This document shows, piece after piece, positions 4,944 to 22,962 of a DNA stretch of 64,000 bases. Position numbers and translations under genes: made by a program. Numbering within the stretch: the first letter of the stretch is position 1; every line of letters begins with the position of its first letter. Origin of the DNA: an uncultured Pelagibacteraceae bacterium (GTDB lineage: Bacteria; Pseudomonadota; Alphaproteobacteria; Pelagibacterales; Pelagibacteraceae); contig CACGGJ010000003.1 in assembly GCA_902572515.1 (NCBI GenBank), positions 1 to 64,000 on the forward strand, written 5' to 3'. Below the pieces are notes generated by a model, which made no database searches, had not been told where the DNA came from, and was given only the letters and a program-made list of their open reading frames with translations.

Positions 4944-5999
4944 ATGAACAATATAAAAGGCCCTGCAATTTTCCTAGCACAATTTGTAGGTGAAGATGCA
5001 CCGTTTAATTCCTTAGATAACATTTGTAAGTGGGCATCTTCTTTAGGTTACAAAGGTGTGCAAATTCCAAGTTGGGATGGTAGATTAATTGATTTAAAGA
5101 AAGCATCTAAAAGCAAAGATTATTGTGATGAAGTAAAAGGCATAACAAAAAAGCATAATCTCGAGATCACCGAACTATCAACGCATCTTCAAGGGCAATT
5201 GGTTGCAGTACATCCAGCATACGACACCGCATTTGATGGATTTGCCGCACCTGAAGTTAGAGGAAATCCAAAAGCAAGACAAGAGTGGGCAGTAAATCAA
5301 TTGATGATGGCAGCTAAGGCCTCAAAAAATCTTGGACTAGATAGGCATGTTACTTTTTCTGGAGCACTAGCTTGGCCTTATGTTTATCCTTGGCCACAAA
5401 GACCTGAAGGACTAATTGAAAACGCATTTAATGAACTTTCTAATCGATGGAAACCAATTCTTGATCAATTCGATCAAAATGGAGTTGATCTTTGTTATGA
5501 GATACACCCAGGTGAGGATCTTCACGATGGTATCACATTTGAAATGTTTTTAGAAAAAGTTGGTAATCATAAAAGATGTAATATGCTTTATGATCCTAGT
5601 CATTATGTTTTACAGAATTTAGATTACTTGGCTCATATAGATATTTATCATGAAAAAATAAAAATGTTTCATGTTAAAGATGCAGAGTTAAATCCTACTG
5701 GAAAACAAGGGGTGTATGGTGGTTTCCAACCTTGGGTTAACAGAGCAGGTCGATTTAGATCTCTTGGCGATGGACAGGTAGATTTTAAATCAATCTTTTC
5801 AAAGTTTACCACTTATGGTTATGATGGTTGGGCAGTTCTAGAATGGGAGTGTTGTCTTAAACACCCAGAAGATGGAGCAAGAGAAGGTGCTGAATTTATC
5901 AAAAATCATATTATTAACACCACAGAAAAAGCATTTGATGATTTTGCAGGAAGTGGTGCTGATATTGAAGCAAATAAAAAAATGCTGGGTATAAATTAG
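4944..5999 (+). CDS. TIM-barrel sugar phosphate isomerase/epimerase (AP endonuclease 2 fold)
   Basis: A 351-residue xylose-isomerase-like TIM-barrel protein. Metal-ligand type residues are visible in CYEIHPGEDLHDG (Glu/His), NMLYDPSHYVLQ (Asp/His), KMFHVKDAEL (His, Asp) and AVLEWECC (Glu). The start at 4944 follows a strong G-rich Shine-Dalgarno sequence (seven G at 4932-4938). An upstream in-frame TTG at 4911 is less likely. Its stop overlaps the GTG start of the next gene, a Gfo/Idh dehydrogenase. Such pairs are common in cyclitol and keto-sugar pathways (IolE/IolG-like), but the substrate is unknown. It is divergent from the CUT1 operon. Confidence 0.88.
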   Translation: MNNIKGPAIFLAQFVGEDAPFNSLDNICKWASSLGYKGVQIPSWDGRLIDLKKASKSKDYCDEVKGITKKHNLEITELSTHLQGQLVAVHPAYDTAFDGFAAPEVRGNPKARQEWAVNQLMMAAKASKNLGLDRHVTFSGALAWPYVYPWPQRPEGLIENAFNELSNRWKPILDQFDQNGVDLCYEIHPGEDLHDGITFEMFLEKVGNHKRCNMLYDPSHYVLQNLDYLAHIDIYHEKIKMFHVKDAELNPTGKQGVYGGFQPWVNRAGRFRSLGDGQVDFKSIFSKFTTYGYDGWAVLEWECCLKHPEDGAREGAEFIKNHIINTTEKAFDDFAGSGADIEANKKMLGIN

Positions 6000-14630: not shown

Positions 14631-16475
14631 ATGAAGAAAATTACCCTCACTTGTGCTCATGCAATTGTAAAATATTTAATTGCTCAAAAAATATTAATTA
14701 ATGGTAAAAAAGAACCATTATTTCCAGGTGTCTTTGGAATTTTTGGACATGGAAATGTAGCTTGTTTAGGTCAAGCTCTAGAAGAAAATCAAAAAGAGCT
14801 TCCAACTTACAGAGGGCATCATGAGCAAAATATGGCTCTTACTGGAATTGGTTATGCAAGAGCAAAAAGAAGACAACAAATATTTGTAGCAACATCTTCT
14901 GTTGGACCTGGTGCAACTAATATGGTTACAGCTGCTGCAGTTGCTATGAGTAACAGATTGCCAATTTTATTTTTACCTGGAGACACCTATGCGAATAGAA
15001 TGCCAGATCCAGTTTTACAACAAGTTGAGCATTTTAATAATCCAGGAATAACAGCCAATGATGCATTTAAGCCTGTAACAAGATATTTTGATCGAATAAC
15101 TAGACCAGAACAGATTATTCAATCATTTCCAGCAGCAGTTCAAACAATGTTAGATCCTGCAGATTGCGGTCCTGCATGTATCGCTTTAAGTCAAGATATA
15201 CAAGGTCAAACCTTTGATTACCCTGAAGAATTTTTTAAAGAAAGAGTACACGCGATTAGAAGACCAAGACCAGATGAATTTCAAATTAAAGAGGCAGCAG
15301 AAAAAATTAAGTCATCTAAAAATCCAATTTTAATTTCTGGTGGTGGAGTTTTTTACTCAGATGCAATGGATGAGTTAAGTCAATTTGCAATTAAACATAA
15401 CATACCAGTCACTCAAACTGTAATGGGATATTCTACAATGAAAAGAGACCATTCTCATTTTGCAGGCCAGATTGGCGGTTTAGGTGGAAAAAATACAAAT
15501 ACATTAGCAAAAGAAACAGATTTAGCAATTGCGGTTGGAACTAAACTTGCAGATTTTACAACTGGGTCATGGGCAAATTTTGAAAACGAAAATTTTAAAC
15601 TAGTTTCAATAAATGTATCAAGATTTGATGCTAACAAACATTTAGCGCAAGCTGTAATTGGAGATGCTAAAGTTTCATTAACTGAACTTTCGCAAGCACT
15701 AGGAAGTTGGAAAGCTGGAGATGAATGGAATAAAAAATCTCAAACTGAACTTAAATCATGGAATGAACATATAGATAAAGAGAGTGCGCCTACAAATCAA
15801 GAAGTCCCAAGTTATGTTCAAGTAATTGGTGCAATTTATAGAAACTCTGACCCAACAGATATTGCAGTTACTGCAGCAGGAGGTTTGGTTGGTGAAGTTG
15901 TTCAAGTTTGGAGACCCAGAGAACTAAATACTCATGAAACAGAGTGGGGTTTTAGTTGTATGAGTTATGAAATTTCTGGAGCGCTTGGAATAAAAATGGC
16001 AAATCCAGACAAAGAAGTAATTTCTTTTGTAGGAGATGGTTCTTATCTTTTAAATAACACAGATATATATTCTTCAGTTATTACAAAAAATAAATTAATA
16101 ATTATAGTTTGTGATAATGGTGGGTTTGCAGTTATCAATCGACTTCAATTATTTAAAGGCGGTAAAGAATATAATAACTTATTAAAGAGTTCTAATACCC
16201 CTGGATTAGTGGATGTTGATTTTGCAAAACATGCAGAAAGTATGGGAGCTAAATCTGAACACGTTAATTCAATTTCAGATCTTGAAGCTGCATTTAAGAG
16301 AGCAAAAGCTTCTGATGTAACTTATGTTATTTCAATAAAAACTCATGCTTATAAATGGGTTGAAGGATCAGCTTTTTGGGATAGCCCAACACTCGAAATT
16401 CCGACTACCAAAGAAAATGAAGCAGCTATAAAACTTTATAAAGAAGGTAAAGGCAAACAAAGACAAGGTGTATAA
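14631..16475 (+). CDS. ThDP-dependent enzyme, IolD-like (trihydroxycyclohexanedione hydrolase family)
   Basis: A 614-residue thiamine-diphosphate enzyme with the three-domain plan of acetolactate-synthase relatives. The catalytic glutamate lies in YRGHHEQNMAL near residues 59-69. The C-terminal ThDP/magnesium motif GDGSYLLNNTD ... DNGGFAVIN near 464-505 matches IolD rather than acetolactate synthase. IolD opens a cyclohexanedione ring in inositol breakdown. The gene is followed after 6 bp by a Gfo/Idh dehydrogenase of IolG type. A kinase of IolC type and IolB/IolJ are not seen, so myo-inositol use is only one possibility. Confidence 0.85.
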   Translation: MKKITLTCAHAIVKYLIAQKILINGKKEPLFPGVFGIFGHGNVACLGQALEENQKELPTYRGHHEQNMALTGIGYARAKRRQQIFVATSSVGPGATNMVTAAAVAMSNRLPILFLPGDTYANRMPDPVLQQVEHFNNPGITANDAFKPVTRYFDRITRPEQIIQSFPAAVQTMLDPADCGPACIALSQDIQGQTFDYPEEFFKERVHAIRRPRPDEFQIKEAAEKIKSSKNPILISGGGVFYSDAMDELSQFAIKHNIPVTQTVMGYSTMKRDHSHFAGQIGGLGGKNTNTLAKETDLAIAVGTKLADFTTGSWANFENENFKLVSINVSRFDANKHLAQAVIGDAKVSLTELSQALGSWKAGDEWNKKSQTELKSWNEHIDKESAPTNQEVPSYVQVIGAIYRNSDPTDIAVTAAGGLVGEVVQVWRPRELNTHETEWGFSCMSYEISGALGIKMANPDKEVISFVGDGSYLLNNTDIYSSVITKNKLIIIVCDNGGFAVINRLQLFKGGKEYNNLLKSSNTPGLVDVDFAKHAESMGAKSEHVNSISDLEAAFKRAKASDVTYVISIKTHAYKWVEGSAFWDSPTLEIPTTKENEAAIKLYKEGKGKQRQGV

Positions 16476-16481
16476 ACCTTT

Positions 16482-17641
16482 ATGAATAAAATTTTTAAAG
16501 TCGGACTTATTGGCTGTGGCCATATTTCAGAAACTTATTTTAGAGCTCAAGAGTATTTTAATAACATTAGAATAGTTAAGTGTGCAGATATAAATGTTGA
16601 TGCAGCAAAAAAGTGTGCAATTCACTATAACATTGAAGCTGTAACTGTAGAAGAACTTTTAAAAGACAAAGAAATTGAAATAATTTTAAATCTCACAATC
16701 CCTGGAGCACATTACGAAGTTTCTAAAATGGCTCTTGAAAATGGAAAACATTCTTATGCTGAAAAACCAATGGCAGTAAATTTTGAAGATGGAAAAAAAC
16801 TACTAGAGCTAGCAAATGAAAAAAATCTTTATATAGGAAATGCACCAGATACTTTTTTAGGTGGCGGTATTCAAAAAACTAAAGAGTTAATTGATAATGG
16901 TGTCATTGGAGATATTAAATTAGGTAATGCTATATTTGCTTTTCCAGGTGTACAATCTTACCATCCAAACCCAGAGAGTTGGTTTGCAGAAAATGAAGGT
17001 GGACCCGTTATTGATATGGGGCCATACTATTTGACAGCATTAGTAAATCTAATTGGTCCAGCAAAACAGGTTCAAGGAAGATGTACAAAAGTTTTTGAAG
17101 AAAGAGAAATTGGAATTGGTCCAAAAAAAGGTCAAAAATTTAAAGTTGAAACACCAACAACTTACTTAGCAACTATACAATTTGAAAATGATTGTATAAT
17201 TCAAATAACTTTATCTTTTGATGTTGTGGCTCATCAAAGAAATCATATTGAGCTTTATGGAAACAAAGGGTCAATAATTGTTCCAGATCCAAATATGTTT
17301 GGAGGATCAGCTTTTGTTTCGGTGACTGCTGGTGGTAATTGGGGGGGGAACATAAAACAGATATGATGCCTTTAGGAAAGATTAATATAAAGAGTCAAAG
17401 CTCTAGAGCAAATGAATCACCTACAAACGCAAACTATAGGGGAGCTGGTTTATCAGAAATGGCTTATGCAATTGAAAATAATTTAGAGCACAGGTGTAAC
17501 GGAGAACTATCTCTTCATGTGTTAGATATAATTGATTCTACTATGAGAGCTTCACAAACAGGCATCCCACAAGAAATAAAAACAACGTGTAAGAAACCAA
17601 AACCATTTACGTTAGAAGAAATTAAAAAAATTATGAATTAA
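16482..17641 (+). pseudogene. Gfo/Idh/MocA dehydrogenase, reading frame interrupted at a G8 tract
   Basis: The N-terminal frame (16482-17366) has the Rossmann motif GLIGCGHISETYF and AEKPMAVNF (EKP motif) of the family. It breaks off just after eight consecutive G at 17341-17348. The remaining C-terminal domain continues in the -1 frame to 17641 (MMPLGKINIKSQSS to the end). One more G, or a -1 ribosomal slip on the G tract, would give a complete protein of about 385 residues. Codon use and conservation look normal on both sides, so decay is recent or only apparent (phase variation, programmed slip or sequencing error). It lies between the IolD-like and 2-hydroxyacid dehydrogenase genes. Confidence 0.8.
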
Positions 17642-17660
17642 TAAGTTTGTTATATAATTA

Positions 17661-18683
17661 ATGAAAAAACCAATTGTTATATCTGATCCTTTCCCAAGAA
17701 CATTAGATCTCATTTTCACTAAAAAAAAATTAAAAGAATTAAAATCAAAATATAAGGTTTTGATAGCACCTAACAAAAACAAAAGACAATTTTATGAAAA
17801 ATATATTGATAATGTTACTTTTATCATGGGACAACCAGACTTAGATAAAAAAATTTTGTCAAAAGCAAAAAAATTGAAAGCAATAATCAATGTTGAAAGT
17901 AATTTTATGAATAATGTTGATTATCTTTATTGTGCCAGAAAAGGAATACATGTTATCGCAACTTCTCCAGTATTTTCAAAGCCTGTCGCTGAAATTGCAT
18001 TAGGTATGACACTTTCTCTGTTAAGAAATATTCATAATGCTCATTTTGATTTTGTAAAAGGTTCTGAAAAGTATGGATTAGAAAGTAATTTAAAAGCATC
18101 ATTATTATCAGGAAAAAAAATTGGATTATTAGGTTTTGGTGATTTAGCAAAATCTTTATATCCAATGTTACTTCCATTTACTAAAGATATAAATGTTTAC
18201 GACCCCTGGTTATCAAAGAACAAAATTAAAAGGTTTGGATTTAAACCTGTTAGTTTAAATCAAATGTTTAAAACTTGTGAAATTATTTACGTTTTAGCGG
18301 CGGTAACAACTAAGAATAAAAATTTAGTTAATAAAAATTTAATTAACAAAATGAAATCTAACTCATTATTTATATTGATGAGTCGAGCAGCAGTTGTAAA
18401 TTTTAAAGATTTAATCAAGAGAGTTAAAAAGGGAGATATATATGTAGCTACGGATGTATTTCCTGAAGAACCAGTGAGAAAAAATGACCCAATTAGGAAA
18501 GTTAAAAACATTTTGTTTTCAGCGCACAGAGCAGGAGCTTTGACTGAGGCCTTTTATAATATGGGGGATATAGTTTTAAAGGACATGCATCTAATTTCAA
18601 AAAATTTAAAACCAAAATTTTGCAAAAAAGCTGAACTGAAAACAGTGGGGTTATTAGCCTCAAAACCAGTTGCAATTAATTGA
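17661..18683 (+). CDS. D-isomer-specific 2-hydroxyacid dehydrogenase family protein
   Basis: A 340-residue NAD(P)-dependent dehydrogenase. The coenzyme loop GLLGFGDLAKS is near residues 154-164. The catalytic arginine is in LMSRAAVVN near 240, the glutamate in FPEEP near 270 and the histidine in SAHRAGALTE near 290, in the order expected for phosphoglycerate/glycerate dehydrogenase relatives. It would reduce a 2-oxoacid or oxidise a 2-hydroxyacid made in the surrounding sugar-acid pathway. A ribose-type ABC transporter follows after 22 bp on the same strand. Confidence 0.85.
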   Translation: MKKPIVISDPFPRTLDLIFTKKKLKELKSKYKVLIAPNKNKRQFYEKYIDNVTFIMGQPDLDKKILSKAKKLKAIINVESNFMNNVDYLYCARKGIHVIATSPVFSKPVAEIALGMTLSLLRNIHNAHFDFVKGSEKYGLESNLKASLLSGKKIGLLGFGDLAKSLYPMLLPFTKDINVYDPWLSKNKIKRFGFKPVSLNQMFKTCEIIYVLAAVTTKNKNLVNKNLINKMKSNSLFILMSRAAVVNFKDLIKRVKKGDIYVATDVFPEEPVRKNDPIRKVKNILFSAHRAGALTEAFYNMGDIVLKDMHLISKNLKPKFCKKAELKTVGLLASKPVAIN

Positions 18684-18705
18684 TATTTTAATAATTTTAT
18701 AAATT

Positions 18706-19455
18706 ATGTCGTCAACTAGCAATCCACTATTAGAAGCCAAAGGAATAACAAAATATTTTGGAACTATTACTGCGTTAGAAAATGTTAACCTAAAAGTTCA
18801 TGCTGGAGAATGTTTGGGTGTAGTTGGAGATAATGGAGCAGGAAAATCAACTTTAATGAAAGTTTTGTCGGGACTTTATAAACCAAGCGCAGGTTCCTTA
18901 TTTTTTCAAGGTAAAGAAGAAATACTAGAAAGTCCAAGAGACTCTCAAAACCTAGGTTTAGAAATGGTTTATCAAGATCTTGCTTTAGCAGGCAATTTAC
19001 CTATTGGTGAAAATATTTTTTTAGGAAGAGAGCCAACAAAAAATTTAGGATTTTTAAAACTATTAGATTTTAATAAAATTAAAGAGTTAACTAATGCTCA
19101 TTTAGATAAGTTAAAAATAAATGTTAAAAGTGCTGATCAAAAAGTAGAGGAACTTTCAGGTGGTCAAAGACAAGCTGTGGCAATCGCAAGATCAACAGCC
19201 TTTAATGCTAAAGTAGTAATTATGGATGAACCAACTGCAGCATTAGCGATCAAAGAAGTTGGTAAAGTTTTAGATCTTATTAATAGTTTAAAAAAAACAG
19301 GTGTTGGAGTAATTGTAATAAGTCATAGAATGGATGATATTTTTACAGTTTGTGATCGTGTAATGGCTTTATTCCAAGGAACAAATTTTGCAGAAGCTAG
19401 CCTTTCAAATACTTCAAGAGATGAAGTTATTGGATGGATTATGGGTAAAAAATAA
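18706..19455 (+). CDS. ribose-type ABC transporter ATP-binding protein (CUT2, single domain)
   Basis: A 249-residue ATPase. Walker A GDNGAGKST is at about residues 42-50, the signature LSGGQRQAV near 149-157, and Walker B VVIMDEPTAA near 170-179. Typical RbsA has two ATPase halves of about 500 residues in total. This protein has one, so a homodimer is expected, as in some FrcA-like systems. Its stop lies 1 bp before the permease start. With the permease and binding protein it forms an importer for a monosaccharide. Confidence 0.92.
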   Translation: MSSTSNPLLEAKGITKYFGTITALENVNLKVHAGECLGVVGDNGAGKSTLMKVLSGLYKPSAGSLFFQGKEEILESPRDSQNLGLEMVYQDLALAGNLPIGENIFLGREPTKNLGFLKLLDFNKIKELTNAHLDKLKINVKSADQKVEELSGGQRQAVAIARSTAFNAKVVIMDEPTAALAIKEVGKVLDLINSLKKTGVGVIVISHRMDDIFTVCDRVMALFQGTNFAEASLSNTSRDEVIGWIMGKK

Positions 19456-19456
19456 T

Positions 19457-20470
19457 ATGGAAGATAAAGATAAAAAAATAGAAAGTTTGCACTTAAAATT
19501 AATTCCGTACTTTGAAAAGTATGGAATACTTCTTTTGTTAGTTCTTATGATTCTGGTAATGCATATTTTACAACCAGATGTGTTTTTATCATGGAGAAAT
19601 GTAACCAATGTTTTTAAACAAATATCCTGGCAATCAATGCTAGCTCTAGGAGTATTTATGGTAATTGTGACAGCAGGAATTGATCTTTCTGTTGGCTCTA
19701 TAATGATGTTATCTCTTATGATTTTAGCTGTCGTTGCAAAAGCAGGAGCCCCCTGGTTCATTGTAGTAATTACGCCATTGATTGCAGGTTTTTTGTGTGG
19801 GTTATTTAATGGTTTAGGTATTACTTTATTACGGATGCCTCATCCTTTTATAATGACTTTGGGCACACTTTATATATTTAGAGGTGCAGGAAATTTAATT
19901 TCAGGTGGTACTCCTATTAGTGGCTTTACAGATGAAGTTAGATATTTGGGACATGGAAGAATTGATCTTCAATGGTTGGGATTAGAAAAATCTCAATATT
20001 TACCTGTAAGTTTAGTATTAATTGCAATTGTTTATATAATTTTTTGGATTTTTTTAAATAAGAGTAAAACTGGTAAATGGATTTATGCAATTGGAGGCAA
20101 TCCAAATGCAGCTAGAGCTTCAGGAATAAATGTAAATAAAATTTTGATTATTGTTTATTCTTTGTGTGGTTTTTTATCTGGTATTGGTGCTTTAATTTTA
20201 GCTGGAAGAACTGACTCAGGATATCCAAATGCTGGACTTCAGTCAGAACTCGATGCGATTGCTGCTTGTATTATTGGTGGAGCAAGTTTTTTTGGAGGAA
20301 GAGGAACTGTGCTTGGAGTTTTTGCTGGAGTTATGATTATGGGTATTCTTCGTAATGGACTAAACTTAATGGATGTAAGTTCATTTTGGCAACAAGTGTT
20401 AATCGGCTCAATTATAGTTTTAGCTGTTTATATAGACGTGCTAAGAAGAGATATTGGAACAAGAAAATAA
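19457..20470 (+). CDS. ribose-type ABC transporter permease (CUT2)
   Basis: A 337-residue inner-membrane permease with eight to ten hydrophobic segments. It carries the family signatures TAGIDLSVGSIMMLS, FIMTLGTLYIFRG and the cytoplasmic coupling loop YAIGGNPNAARASGI. I chose the ATG at 19457 just after the ATPase stop. An earlier in-frame start at 19388 lies inside the ATPase gene. It works with the single-domain ATPase upstream and the binding protein downstream. Confidence 0.92.
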   Translation: MEDKDKKIESLHLKLIPYFEKYGILLLLVLMILVMHILQPDVFLSWRNVTNVFKQISWQSMLALGVFMVIVTAGIDLSVGSIMMLSLMILAVVAKAGAPWFIVVITPLIAGFLCGLFNGLGITLLRMPHPFIMTLGTLYIFRGAGNLISGGTPISGFTDEVRYLGHGRIDLQWLGLEKSQYLPVSLVLIAIVYIIFWIFLNKSKTGKWIYAIGGNPNAARASGINVNKILIIVYSLCGFLSGIGALILAGRTDSGYPNAGLQSELDAIAACIIGGASFFGGRGTVLGVFAGVMIMGILRNGLNLMDVSSFWQQVLIGSIIVLAVYIDVLRRDIGTRK

Positions 20471-20480
20471 TTTACACGTA

Positions 20481-20571
20481 TTAGTTGTTTTAATCTAATT
20501 TAGAACTGTTCTTATTAACTGTTGAATTCTTTTTAAATTTTCGATTAAATTTAATTTTAAAAAACAACTAA
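20481..20571 (+). promoter_or_regulatory. inverted repeat in front of the ribose-type binding-protein gene
   Basis: TTAGTTGTTTT (20481-20491) is the exact reverse complement of AAAACAACTAA (20561-20571). The second arm ends on the first base of the Shine-Dalgarno sequence (AGGGG at 20571-20575) of the binding-protein gene. The 111-bp gap has room for a separate promoter. A long-range stem or a regulator site is possible. Confidence 0.4.
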
Positions 20572-20581
20572 GGGGAAATAT

Positions 20582-21505
20582 ATGAAAAACTTAACAAAAA
20601 TAATTAGTGTAATTATTACTTCTGTTTTTCTATTAGCAAGTTTTTCAACAGGGGCATTTGCTGGAAAAAAAATATTATTCAGCATTAAAGGACCTGGATC
20701 AGGTAATCCTTTTTGGGCATCTGTAGAAAAAGGAGCTAAAGAAGAAGCAGCAAAATTAGGTGTTGATTTAGTTTTGGTTGCACCACCGCAAGAAGGTGAT
20801 GTACAAGCTCAGATTAACCAAGTTGAGGACCAACTAGCAAAAGGTGTTGATGCAATAGCTTTAGCGCCAGGAGATCCAAATGCTTTTGCTCCAATCGTAG
20901 ACGATGCGATTAAAAGTGGCGTTCCAGTTGTATTTGTGGATACAAAAGGAATTAATGAAGGGGTAACTTTTATTGGAACAAACAACATGAATGGTGCAGA
21001 GTTAGCTGCAAAATTTATTTGTGATAAAACTCCTAAAGGTTCAGATGTTGCAATTTTAACCGGTATTGAGTCACAATCTACAGCTTTGTTAAGAAGAGAT
21101 GGTGCAATAAAAGGTTTTAAAAATTGTGGATTAAATATTGTTGCTACTCAAACTGCTGAGTGGGACACTGCAAAAGGTAGATCTGTAACTGAGTCGATTA
21201 TTTTAAAAAATCCAAACATTAAAGCAATATTTGCTTCAAATGATAATATGGGTTTAGGTGCTATGCAGGCTCTTAAAGATGCGGACATGAATGATGTGGT
21301 TGTAGTAGGTTTTGATGCTACTCCAGATGCAGCTACAAGTATCTTAAAAGGAGAGATGACAGCGACAATTGCTCAGTTTTCTTACAACATGGGTGCATAT
21401 GGAGTAAAATATGCTCTTGAATTAGCTAATGGTGGAAGTATTGATCCAAACATCGATACAGGAACACAATTGGTAACAAAAGAAAACGCTAACGATTTTA
21501 AATAA
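20582..21505 (+). CDS. ribose-type periplasmic sugar-binding protein (CUT2)
   Basis: A 307-residue type-I periplasmic binding protein. A signal peptide of about 27 residues (ending FSTGAFAG) precedes ILFSIKGPGSGNPFW. The lobes have the RbsB-like patterns DAIALAPGDPNAF, NMNGAELAA and AIFASNDNMGLGAMQAL. It captures a monosaccharide for the permease/ATPase pair upstream. RbsD/FucU-type mutarotase and ribokinase genes follow, which fits ribose or a related pentose or deoxyhexose. It has its own strong Shine-Dalgarno sequence and a terminator directly after it. Confidence 0.92.
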   Translation: MKNLTKIISVIITSVFLLASFSTGAFAGKKILFSIKGPGSGNPFWASVEKGAKEEAAKLGVDLVLVAPPQEGDVQAQINQVEDQLAKGVDAIALAPGDPNAFAPIVDDAIKSGVPVVFVDTKGINEGVTFIGTNNMNGAELAAKFICDKTPKGSDVAILTGIESQSTALLRRDGAIKGFKNCGLNIVATQTAEWDTAKGRSVTESIILKNPNIKAIFASNDNMGLGAMQALKDADMNDVVVVGFDATPDAATSILKGEMTATIAQFSYNMGAYGVKYALELANGGSIDPNIDTGTQLVTKENANDFK

Positions 21506-21530
21506 TCTTTAGATAATAAATAATTAAAAA

Positions 21531-21560
21531 GGGTGGAATTTAATTCCACCCTTTTTTTTT
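21531..21560 (+). terminator. intrinsic terminator after ribose-type binding protein
   Basis: GGGTGGAATT (21531-21540) pairs with AATTCCACCC (21542-21551), followed by nine T. It lies 25 bp after the stop and 19 bp before the mutarotase gene, so rbsD and rbsK are expressed by read-through or by a weak separate promoter. Confidence 0.9.
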
Positions 21561-21578
21561 ATGTAATATAATATTTTA

Positions 21579-22040
21579 ATGTTAATAAATATTAATCCAG
21601 TTTTAAGCCCTGAATTATTATTTCATCTAAGATCCATGGGTCATGGAGAAAAATTAATTTTAGCTGATGCAAATTTTCCTGCAAATACCTCTAATGACAA
21701 AGTGATAAGATTAGACGGAGTTGGGATTAAAGAAGCGGCCTCAGCAATCCTTTCCGTTTTTCCTCTTGATAGTTTTATTGTTACACAAGGTGGATCTCCA
21801 GCTTTGAGAATGGAGGCGGATGACAAACCAGATGAATTAACAGAGACGCATAAGGAATTTATTGATGTAGTTAAAAATGTTTCTGGGATAAATTGGAAAG
21901 TTGGTTCAATATCTAGGCAAAATTTTTATGAAGAAGCAAAAAAAGCATACTGTATAGTTACAACTACAGATGCTAGACCTTTTGGATGTTTTATTTTAAC
22001 TAAAGGTGTAATTTTACCAGACGGTAAGGTTTGGTCATAA
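21579..22040 (+). CDS. RbsD/FucU family sugar mutarotase
   Basis: A 153-residue protein of the RbsD/FucU family, which interconverts anomers or ring forms of ribose, fucose or related sugars in the cytoplasm. The conserved N-terminal block LLFHLRSMGHGEKLILADANFP contains the catalytic histidine (GHGE near residue 23) and aspartate. The C-terminal part has YCIVTTTDARPFGCFILTKGV. Spacing to the ribokinase gene is 10 bp. The length and the Arg-Pro-Phe motif are closer to FucU than to RbsD. Confidence 0.88.
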   Translation: MLININPVLSPELLFHLRSMGHGEKLILADANFPANTSNDKVIRLDGVGIKEAASAILSVFPLDSFIVTQGGSPALRMEADDKPDELTETHKEFIDVVKNVSGINWKVGSISRQNFYEEAKKAYCIVTTTDARPFGCFILTKGVILPDGKVWS

Positions 22041-22050
22041 AATTTAACTA

Positions 22051-22962
22051 ATGAAATCTATTTCTATATTAGGAGTTTTCGTAGCAGATTTGTGTTTTAT
22101 TGGAGATAAAATTCCCAGCAAAGGTCAAACAATTTTAGGAAAAAAACATGTAGTAGGTCCAGGTGGAAAAGGATCAAATCAAGCGATCGCAGCCTCTAGA
22201 TTAAATGGAGAAGTTAGTTTTATAACCAAAGTTGGTAAAGATAGTCATTCTGAAATGGCATTTAATCTTTATAAGGAAGCTGGAGTAAAAACTCATTCAA
22301 TCATTCAGGATGAAAAACTTTTTACAGGAGTTGCTGGCATTATGATCGATAAAGATGGAAACAATGCAATTAGTATTGTTTCAGGAGCAGCTGAACACCT
22401 TGTTAGTGAAGATATAGACAATAAAATTGAAACAATTAAAAATTCAGAAATATTTCTGACACAAATGGAAACTCCTGATGAAGTTACAATTTATGCTTTA
22501 AAAAAAGCAAAAGAACATAAATGTATAACCATTTTAAATCCTGCTCCAGCACGTAAAATTGACGAAGGTAATTTTAAATTAATAGATTTTTTTACTCCTA
22601 ATGAAACAGAGGCTGAATTTTATTTAAATAAAAAAATTAAAACAGTTGAAGAAATAAAAAATGCAGCCAACGAGTTTTTAAAAAAAGGCATAAAAAATGT
22701 GATTATTACTTTAGGTGAAAAAGGTATTTATTTCTCAAACGGAAAAGAAAACTTTTTCTTGGAAGCATATAAACTAAAACAAGCCGTTGTAGATACAACA
22801 GGAGCAGGAGATGCATTTAATGGAGCTTTTGCTGTCGGTTTAGCAAATGATCTAGATATAAAAGAAGCTTTATCATTTGCAAATAAAGTTGCGGGGATTT
22901 CAACAACAAGATTAGGTGCCGCTTCTTCAATGCCTTTTGCTAAAGAAGTAACAGATAATTAA
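22051..22962 (+). CDS. rbsK: ribokinase family sugar kinase (PfkB)
   Basis: A 303-residue PfkB-family kinase. The N-terminal substrate motif GPGGKGSNQAIAASRL is near residues 36-51, the mid motif TQMETPDEV near 136, and the C-terminal signature VDTTGAGDAFNGAFAVGL near 247-264 contains the catalytic aspartate. The GGKGSNQA sequence is typical of ribokinase. It phosphorylates the sugar delivered by the ribose-type importer after mutarotation. It ends 2 bp from the convergent PdxA2-like gene. Ribose is the best guess, not proven. Confidence 0.88.
   Translation: MKSISILGVFVADLCFIGDKIPSKGQTILGKKHVVGPGGKGSNQAIAASRLNGEVSFITKVGKDSHSEMAFNLYKEAGVKTHSIIQDEKLFTGVAGIMIDKDGNNAISIVSGAAEHLVSEDIDNKIETIKNSEIFLTQMETPDEVTIYALKKAKEHKCITILNPAPARKIDEGNFKLIDFFTPNETEAEFYLNKKIKTVEEIKNAANEFLKKGIKNVIITLGEKGIYFSNGKENFFLEAYKLKQAVVDTTGAGDAFNGAFAVGLANDLDIKEALSFANKVAGISTTRLGAASSMPFAKEVTDN

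Follow-up and report, generated by a model that had tools for sequence, protein, structure and literature searches.

An eight-G run that breaks a Gfo/Idh/MocA oxidoreductase gene in a Pelagibacteraceae genome: a probable private length change

Why does the reading frame of a conserved oxidoreductase gene change at a run of eight G? The window (i.e. the whole stretch of 64,000 nucleotides that was analysed) is contig C3 of an assembly of 1.17 Mb that is 89% complete. The run lies at 17341-17348, and the sequence confirms that the frame changes there, as the first-pass annotation had reported. This is the sole match to eight G on either strand of the assembly. Seven consecutive G are matched four times in the window, two of these matches overlapping within the run of eight; 0.84 matches were expected, and 2 of 100 shuffled sequences reached four. 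Three readings had been offered: a ribosomal slip site, phase variation and error. On the evidence given below the first fails and the second is unsupported, while error or accidental slippage remains. We conclude, with a probability of roughly 0.9, that this is a private change in the length of a poly-G run within an otherwise normal gene of 385 residues, and neither a programmed frameshift nor an evolved switch.

The gene and its two pieces

The upstream frame extends from 16482 to 17366 and encodes 294 amino acids, ending at a TGA codon (17364-17366) 18 bases 3′ of the run. Another frame (17339-17641, 100 amino acids) carries on the same protein past the run. The features of the locus are as follows.

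14631..16475, + strand: iolD, the intact 5′ neighbour (TIGR04377, 801 bits over a cut-off of 715; found at 77 of the 80 related loci)
16482..17366, + strand: upstream piece of a Gfo/Idh/MocA oxidoreductase, 294 amino acids, containing the NAD-binding fold and the greater part of the C-terminal domain (PF01408, PF22725)
17341..17348, + strand: run of eight G at which the frame changes, exceeding by two bases the length in all 71 other pattern-matched genomes
17348..17641, + strand: 97-residue downstream piece of that gene, read in the shifted frame and recognized by conservation in relatives
17363..17366, + strand: ATGA, the stop of the upstream frame overlapping an ATG of the downstream frame, as read from both frames
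17661..18683, + strand: D-2-hydroxyacid dehydrogenase-like gene, the intact 3′ neighbour (best match TIGR01327, below every curated cut-off shown)

The assignment to the Gfo/Idh/MocA oxidoreductases rests on curated domain models. The NAD-binding Rossmann domain PF01408 scores 69.9 bits (cut-off 24) and the C-terminal domain PF22725 scores 78.5 bits (cut-off 27); PF02894 is also above its cut-off (37.8 against 22.9 bits). The copy in the window, with iolD beside it, agrees with the family in these scores and differs from it in being split at a G run. The upstream piece falls far under the cut-off of all ten NCBIfam models matched, including the IolG equivalog TIGR04380 (61.2 against 355 bits), and the downstream piece alone has no match in Pfam or NCBIfam. 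The two pieces are parts of one Gfo/Idh/MocA oxidoreductase of about 385 amino acids, encoded beside iolD in what is a SAR11 (Pelagibacteraceae) genome. As written, the gene would produce a protein of 294 residues lacking the last quarter. A search of the same genome for a second copy gave only three distant family matches with 20-25% identity over part of the length, and in a plasmid search all matches were under 60% identity.

The site in related genomes

In all nine relatives from the genus that have the gene (68-71% identity), the counterpart of the downstream piece directly follows that of the upstream piece within an open frame of 386-399 codons. The first-pass annotation had described both parts as conserved and had asked if the downstream part is lost in relatives; it is kept. 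A scan of named genome contigs confirmed 154 loci, of which the best 80 were retained. The close named relatives are Pelagibacteraceae assemblies, mostly of single cells going by their names. A single frame crosses the site in all of the 80, and the gene is split in none of these best 80 of 154. Translation stops at 384-390 amino acids in 78, while in L055 and L084 the frame runs off the contig edge beyond the site. Among the 53 closest loci (L032-L084, 91-98% identity) there are four G at the site in 51, and six in L078 and L080. The site encodes the motif Asn-Trp-Gly-Glu-His, with a variable third position in the glycine codon.

A sequence pattern for the site was run on 399 genomes of the genus, one per species and including that of the window. 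It matched 72, finding 22 bases in the window and 20 in every one of the other 71, including three with six G; orthologues with other codons behind the run are missed by this pattern. The reversed pattern gave two matches in the 399 genomes as a control. Thirty of the 71 matches were fetched, and all lie inside this gene, with both halves adjoining the match. The pattern-matched genomes and the 80 loci may overlap as sets. Across the 72 matched genomes the window alone differs in length at the site. The shift of −1 proposed earlier is therefore right in phase, but the actual departure from the relatives is a gain of two (22 against 20). Nine G, the length that the first-pass annotation had considered for an assembly error, is not that of the relatives, in which the site is two bases shorter than in the window.

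Programmed or compensatory −1 ribosomal frameshifting on the run would give a joined enzyme of nearly full length besides the short one. In principle the two glycine codons on the run can re-pair by −1, as repeated G allows at the programmed sites described in PMC5009743, and the downstream piece is intact. But the run is unconserved: 51 of the 53 close relatives lack it and the remaining two carry it in frame. Neither a conserved slip site nor a two-frame organization was found among the 80 loci and the 71 other genomes. Heptamers described as highly shift-prone in E. coli (A_AAA_AAG, C_CCA_AAG and G_GGA_AAG) do not occur at this site. A stimulatory structure of the kind associated with such sites was not found when the 82 bases at 17349-17430 were folded as RNA, in a comparison confined to structures other than pseudoknots; the z score was −0.16 and 74 of 200 shuffled sequences folded as well. 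We regard frameshifting of this kind, and with it the earlier suggestion of a slip site, as very improbable.

Could the pieces instead be two coupled half-genes? Translation of the downstream piece would then start anew from the ATG within the stop overlap (ATGA, 17363-17366), and the two products would assemble. The overlap exists, but its ATG belongs to a Met-Met that lies inside one long protein in many intact relatives, so the overlap is probably coincidental. The split is found in none of the 80 related loci. Moreover, the break would cut through a single domain, parting its last strand and C-terminal helices from the remainder. This is seen in a structure model of the relative L045 (mean pLDDT 79, pTM 0.83; residues 300-316 are under 50), where the part corresponding to the downstream piece comprises the last short strand and helices 321-331, 340-359 and 377-384. 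Coupled half-genes are accordingly given very little credence. Because the missing part holds these elements in the model, the frame break would likely lead to loss of function.

Both halves are under strong purifying selection, as judged from dN/dS against 50 of the 53 close relatives (L055 and L084 were dropped as they reach contig ends, and L056 as it has 390 amino acids). The nearest relative by nucleotides, L059, has dN 0.025 and dS 0.350 in the upstream half, and dN 0.000 and dS 0.289 in the downstream half. The downstream residues are identical to those of the window in 10 of the 50; dS is saturated for the downstream half of three relatives. None of the signs of an old pseudogene was found in this comparison of 50 relatives. 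Since selection has acted on both halves, the frame break is either recent or unreal.

Origin of the length change

Phase-variable switches usually act on surface or defence traits, and this gene resembles that of a cytoplasmic catabolic enzyme. Phase variation would mean that the run is maintained so as to turn the enzyme on and off. The mismatch repair background could favour this. The domains PF00488 (MutS_V) and PF01119 (DNA_mis_repair, MutL-type) were each found in none of 41 genomes of the order, including that of the window, while each was present in 11 of 14 control genomes. The result agrees with the reported absence of mutS and mutL from SAR11 subclades Ic and IIa.A (PMC12374537). 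In ΔmutS Vibrio lines indels gather in homopolymers and their rates rise with homopolymer length (PMC5854121). Against a switch, there is one site length in all 71 other matched genomes (one genome per species), mostly with no run, so nothing is maintained across species. This reading is unsupported and most unlikely. A regulated device of any sort is correspondingly improbable.

We therefore return to an accidental change in length. The glycine codon of the Asn-Trp-Gly-Glu-His motif would have taken G in its third place, as it has in a few relatives, thereby creating a G run, and this run would then have gained two bases by strand slippage. The slippage could have occurred in a cell that apparently lacks MutS/MutL mismatch repair, or else during genome amplification, sequencing or assembly. 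These two venues can be weighed by examining how such runs behave elsewhere in the genus.

A run of eight or more G is present in 60 of 201 genomes of the genus. With that of the window included, 72 runs were read with their flanks, 52 being of eight, 12 of nine and 8 of ten. The frame is open for at least 240 nt on both sides of 37; it is maintained across 25 and shifted at 12. One shifted run, in L186, was rejected as a split gene because it lies at the junction of ferrochelatase and its neighbour, i.e. two genes. This leaves probable split genes at 11 of 36 usable runs, the window being one of the 11 and three being weak calls (L179, L196 and L201, whose pieces hit different domains or give poor matches). 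The seven clear cases are SecA (L185), GlpX (L151), an AMP-binding enzyme (L161), PEP carboxylase (L164), glutamate synthase (L189), an FMN-dependent dehydrogenase (L197) and an AccD-like protein (L210). The runs that break genes in the other genomes are of G or C, with lengths of eight to ten. The set of runs as a whole is not independent, since several share a gene (secA is counted five times).

Runs of eight or more A or T behave differently. None of 21 is shifted in the window, none of 182 in the loci of relatives (a set in which the same genes recur many times), and 3 of 64 in the loci that carry G runs. One of these three, in L185, lies next to the G9 in secA and belongs to that break; the other two are runs of A10, in L167 and L188. 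The difference between 11 of 36 G runs and 3 of 64 A/T runs has a Fisher p of 0.0006. As A/T runs are almost never broken, a general error in sequencing homopolymers does not fit, and any fault would have to be specific to G runs. The homopolymer scan of the window gave one apparent shift, at an A7 at position 5976; this was discounted, because two neighbouring reading frames meet immediately after it.

The secA run is G9 and out of frame in L185, while it is G8 and in frame in L152, L168, L205 and L207. The two pieces are the sole SecA matches in the L185 genome (G013). The run in the AccD-like gene is G9 in L210 and G8 in L190, where the 300 nt flanks are 99.7% identical, and the two pieces are again the sole matches in the L210 genome (G129). 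The AccD identity comes from TIGR00515, the cut-off of which was reached in none of the six genomes searched, and the L210 pieces are without a Pfam match at 1e-5. Both secA and accD are generally considered essential, so that at least some of the assembled run lengths are unlikely to be the lengths in the living cell. The incompleteness of the two genomes, 76% (G013) and 65% (G129) complete, weakens this argument. Alternatively, poly-G might be truly hypermutable in SAR11 cells without MutS/MutL while poly-A stays in frame, so that wild populations carry broken copies even of core genes such as secA and accD, rescued by slippage in transcription or translation. We consider this unlikely.

An artefact of amplification, sequencing or assembly is thus somewhat more likely than a true mutation, and we favour it by a little over even odds. 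When benchmarked with three cultures, the GORG-Tropics single-cell workflow gave 3.0 indels per 100 kb (PMC11247762). This corresponds to about two indels per 64 kb, if the window came through that workflow as the names of its relatives would indicate. The indels of the benchmark are the point of likeness to our case; SAR11 A/T runs, being nearly unaffected, are a point of difference. A true recent mutation is the less probable origin, at somewhat over one chance in three, but is quite possible because MutS and MutL were not matched and homopolymers suffer indels in ΔmutS Vibrio. The likeness to those lines lies in the homopolymer indel and in the MutS and MutL domains not being found in the 41 genomes. 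The window differs in being one assembled genome with a gain of two, and not a controlled lineage. The vast majority of indels in the Vibrio lines are of one base (PMC5854121), against which a gain of two is unusual; this is a counterpoint to accidental slippage as the best explanation.

For this gene alone the significance is small, since a single isolated length change in a single assembly is involved. More worthy of attention is the excess of G runs that lie out of frame in the genus. Runs of at least eight G are rare in these assemblies, yet roughly one in three of those usable within coding sequence is out of frame, and claims of gene loss or recoding that depend on them should therefore be checked against the reads.

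The surrounding cluster

The gene is part of a cluster at 14631-22962 that contains iolD, two dehydrogenase genes, a ribose-type ABC transporter and a ribokinase gene. Of the 80 related loci, 39 have the D-2-hydroxyacid dehydrogenase-like gene; some of the loci stop short of its position.

The best upstream segment covers just part of the Gfo/Idh gene in three relatives, L126 (at a contig end), L130 and L137. For L130 and L137 this may reflect further frame breaks upstream in the gene, away from the G site.

We note finally that 13 relatives (L095-L098, L100, L101, L103-L106 and L108-L110) were compared with the window over 14631-20470. The iolD genes are 96-97% identical, those of the hydroxyacid dehydrogenase 92-94%, and the ABC genes 97-99% where present. 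The Gfo/Idh gene is just 70-71% identical to that of the window. Two diverged Gfo/Idh alleles therefore occupy one neighbourhood, which suggests that this single gene was replaced by recombination.
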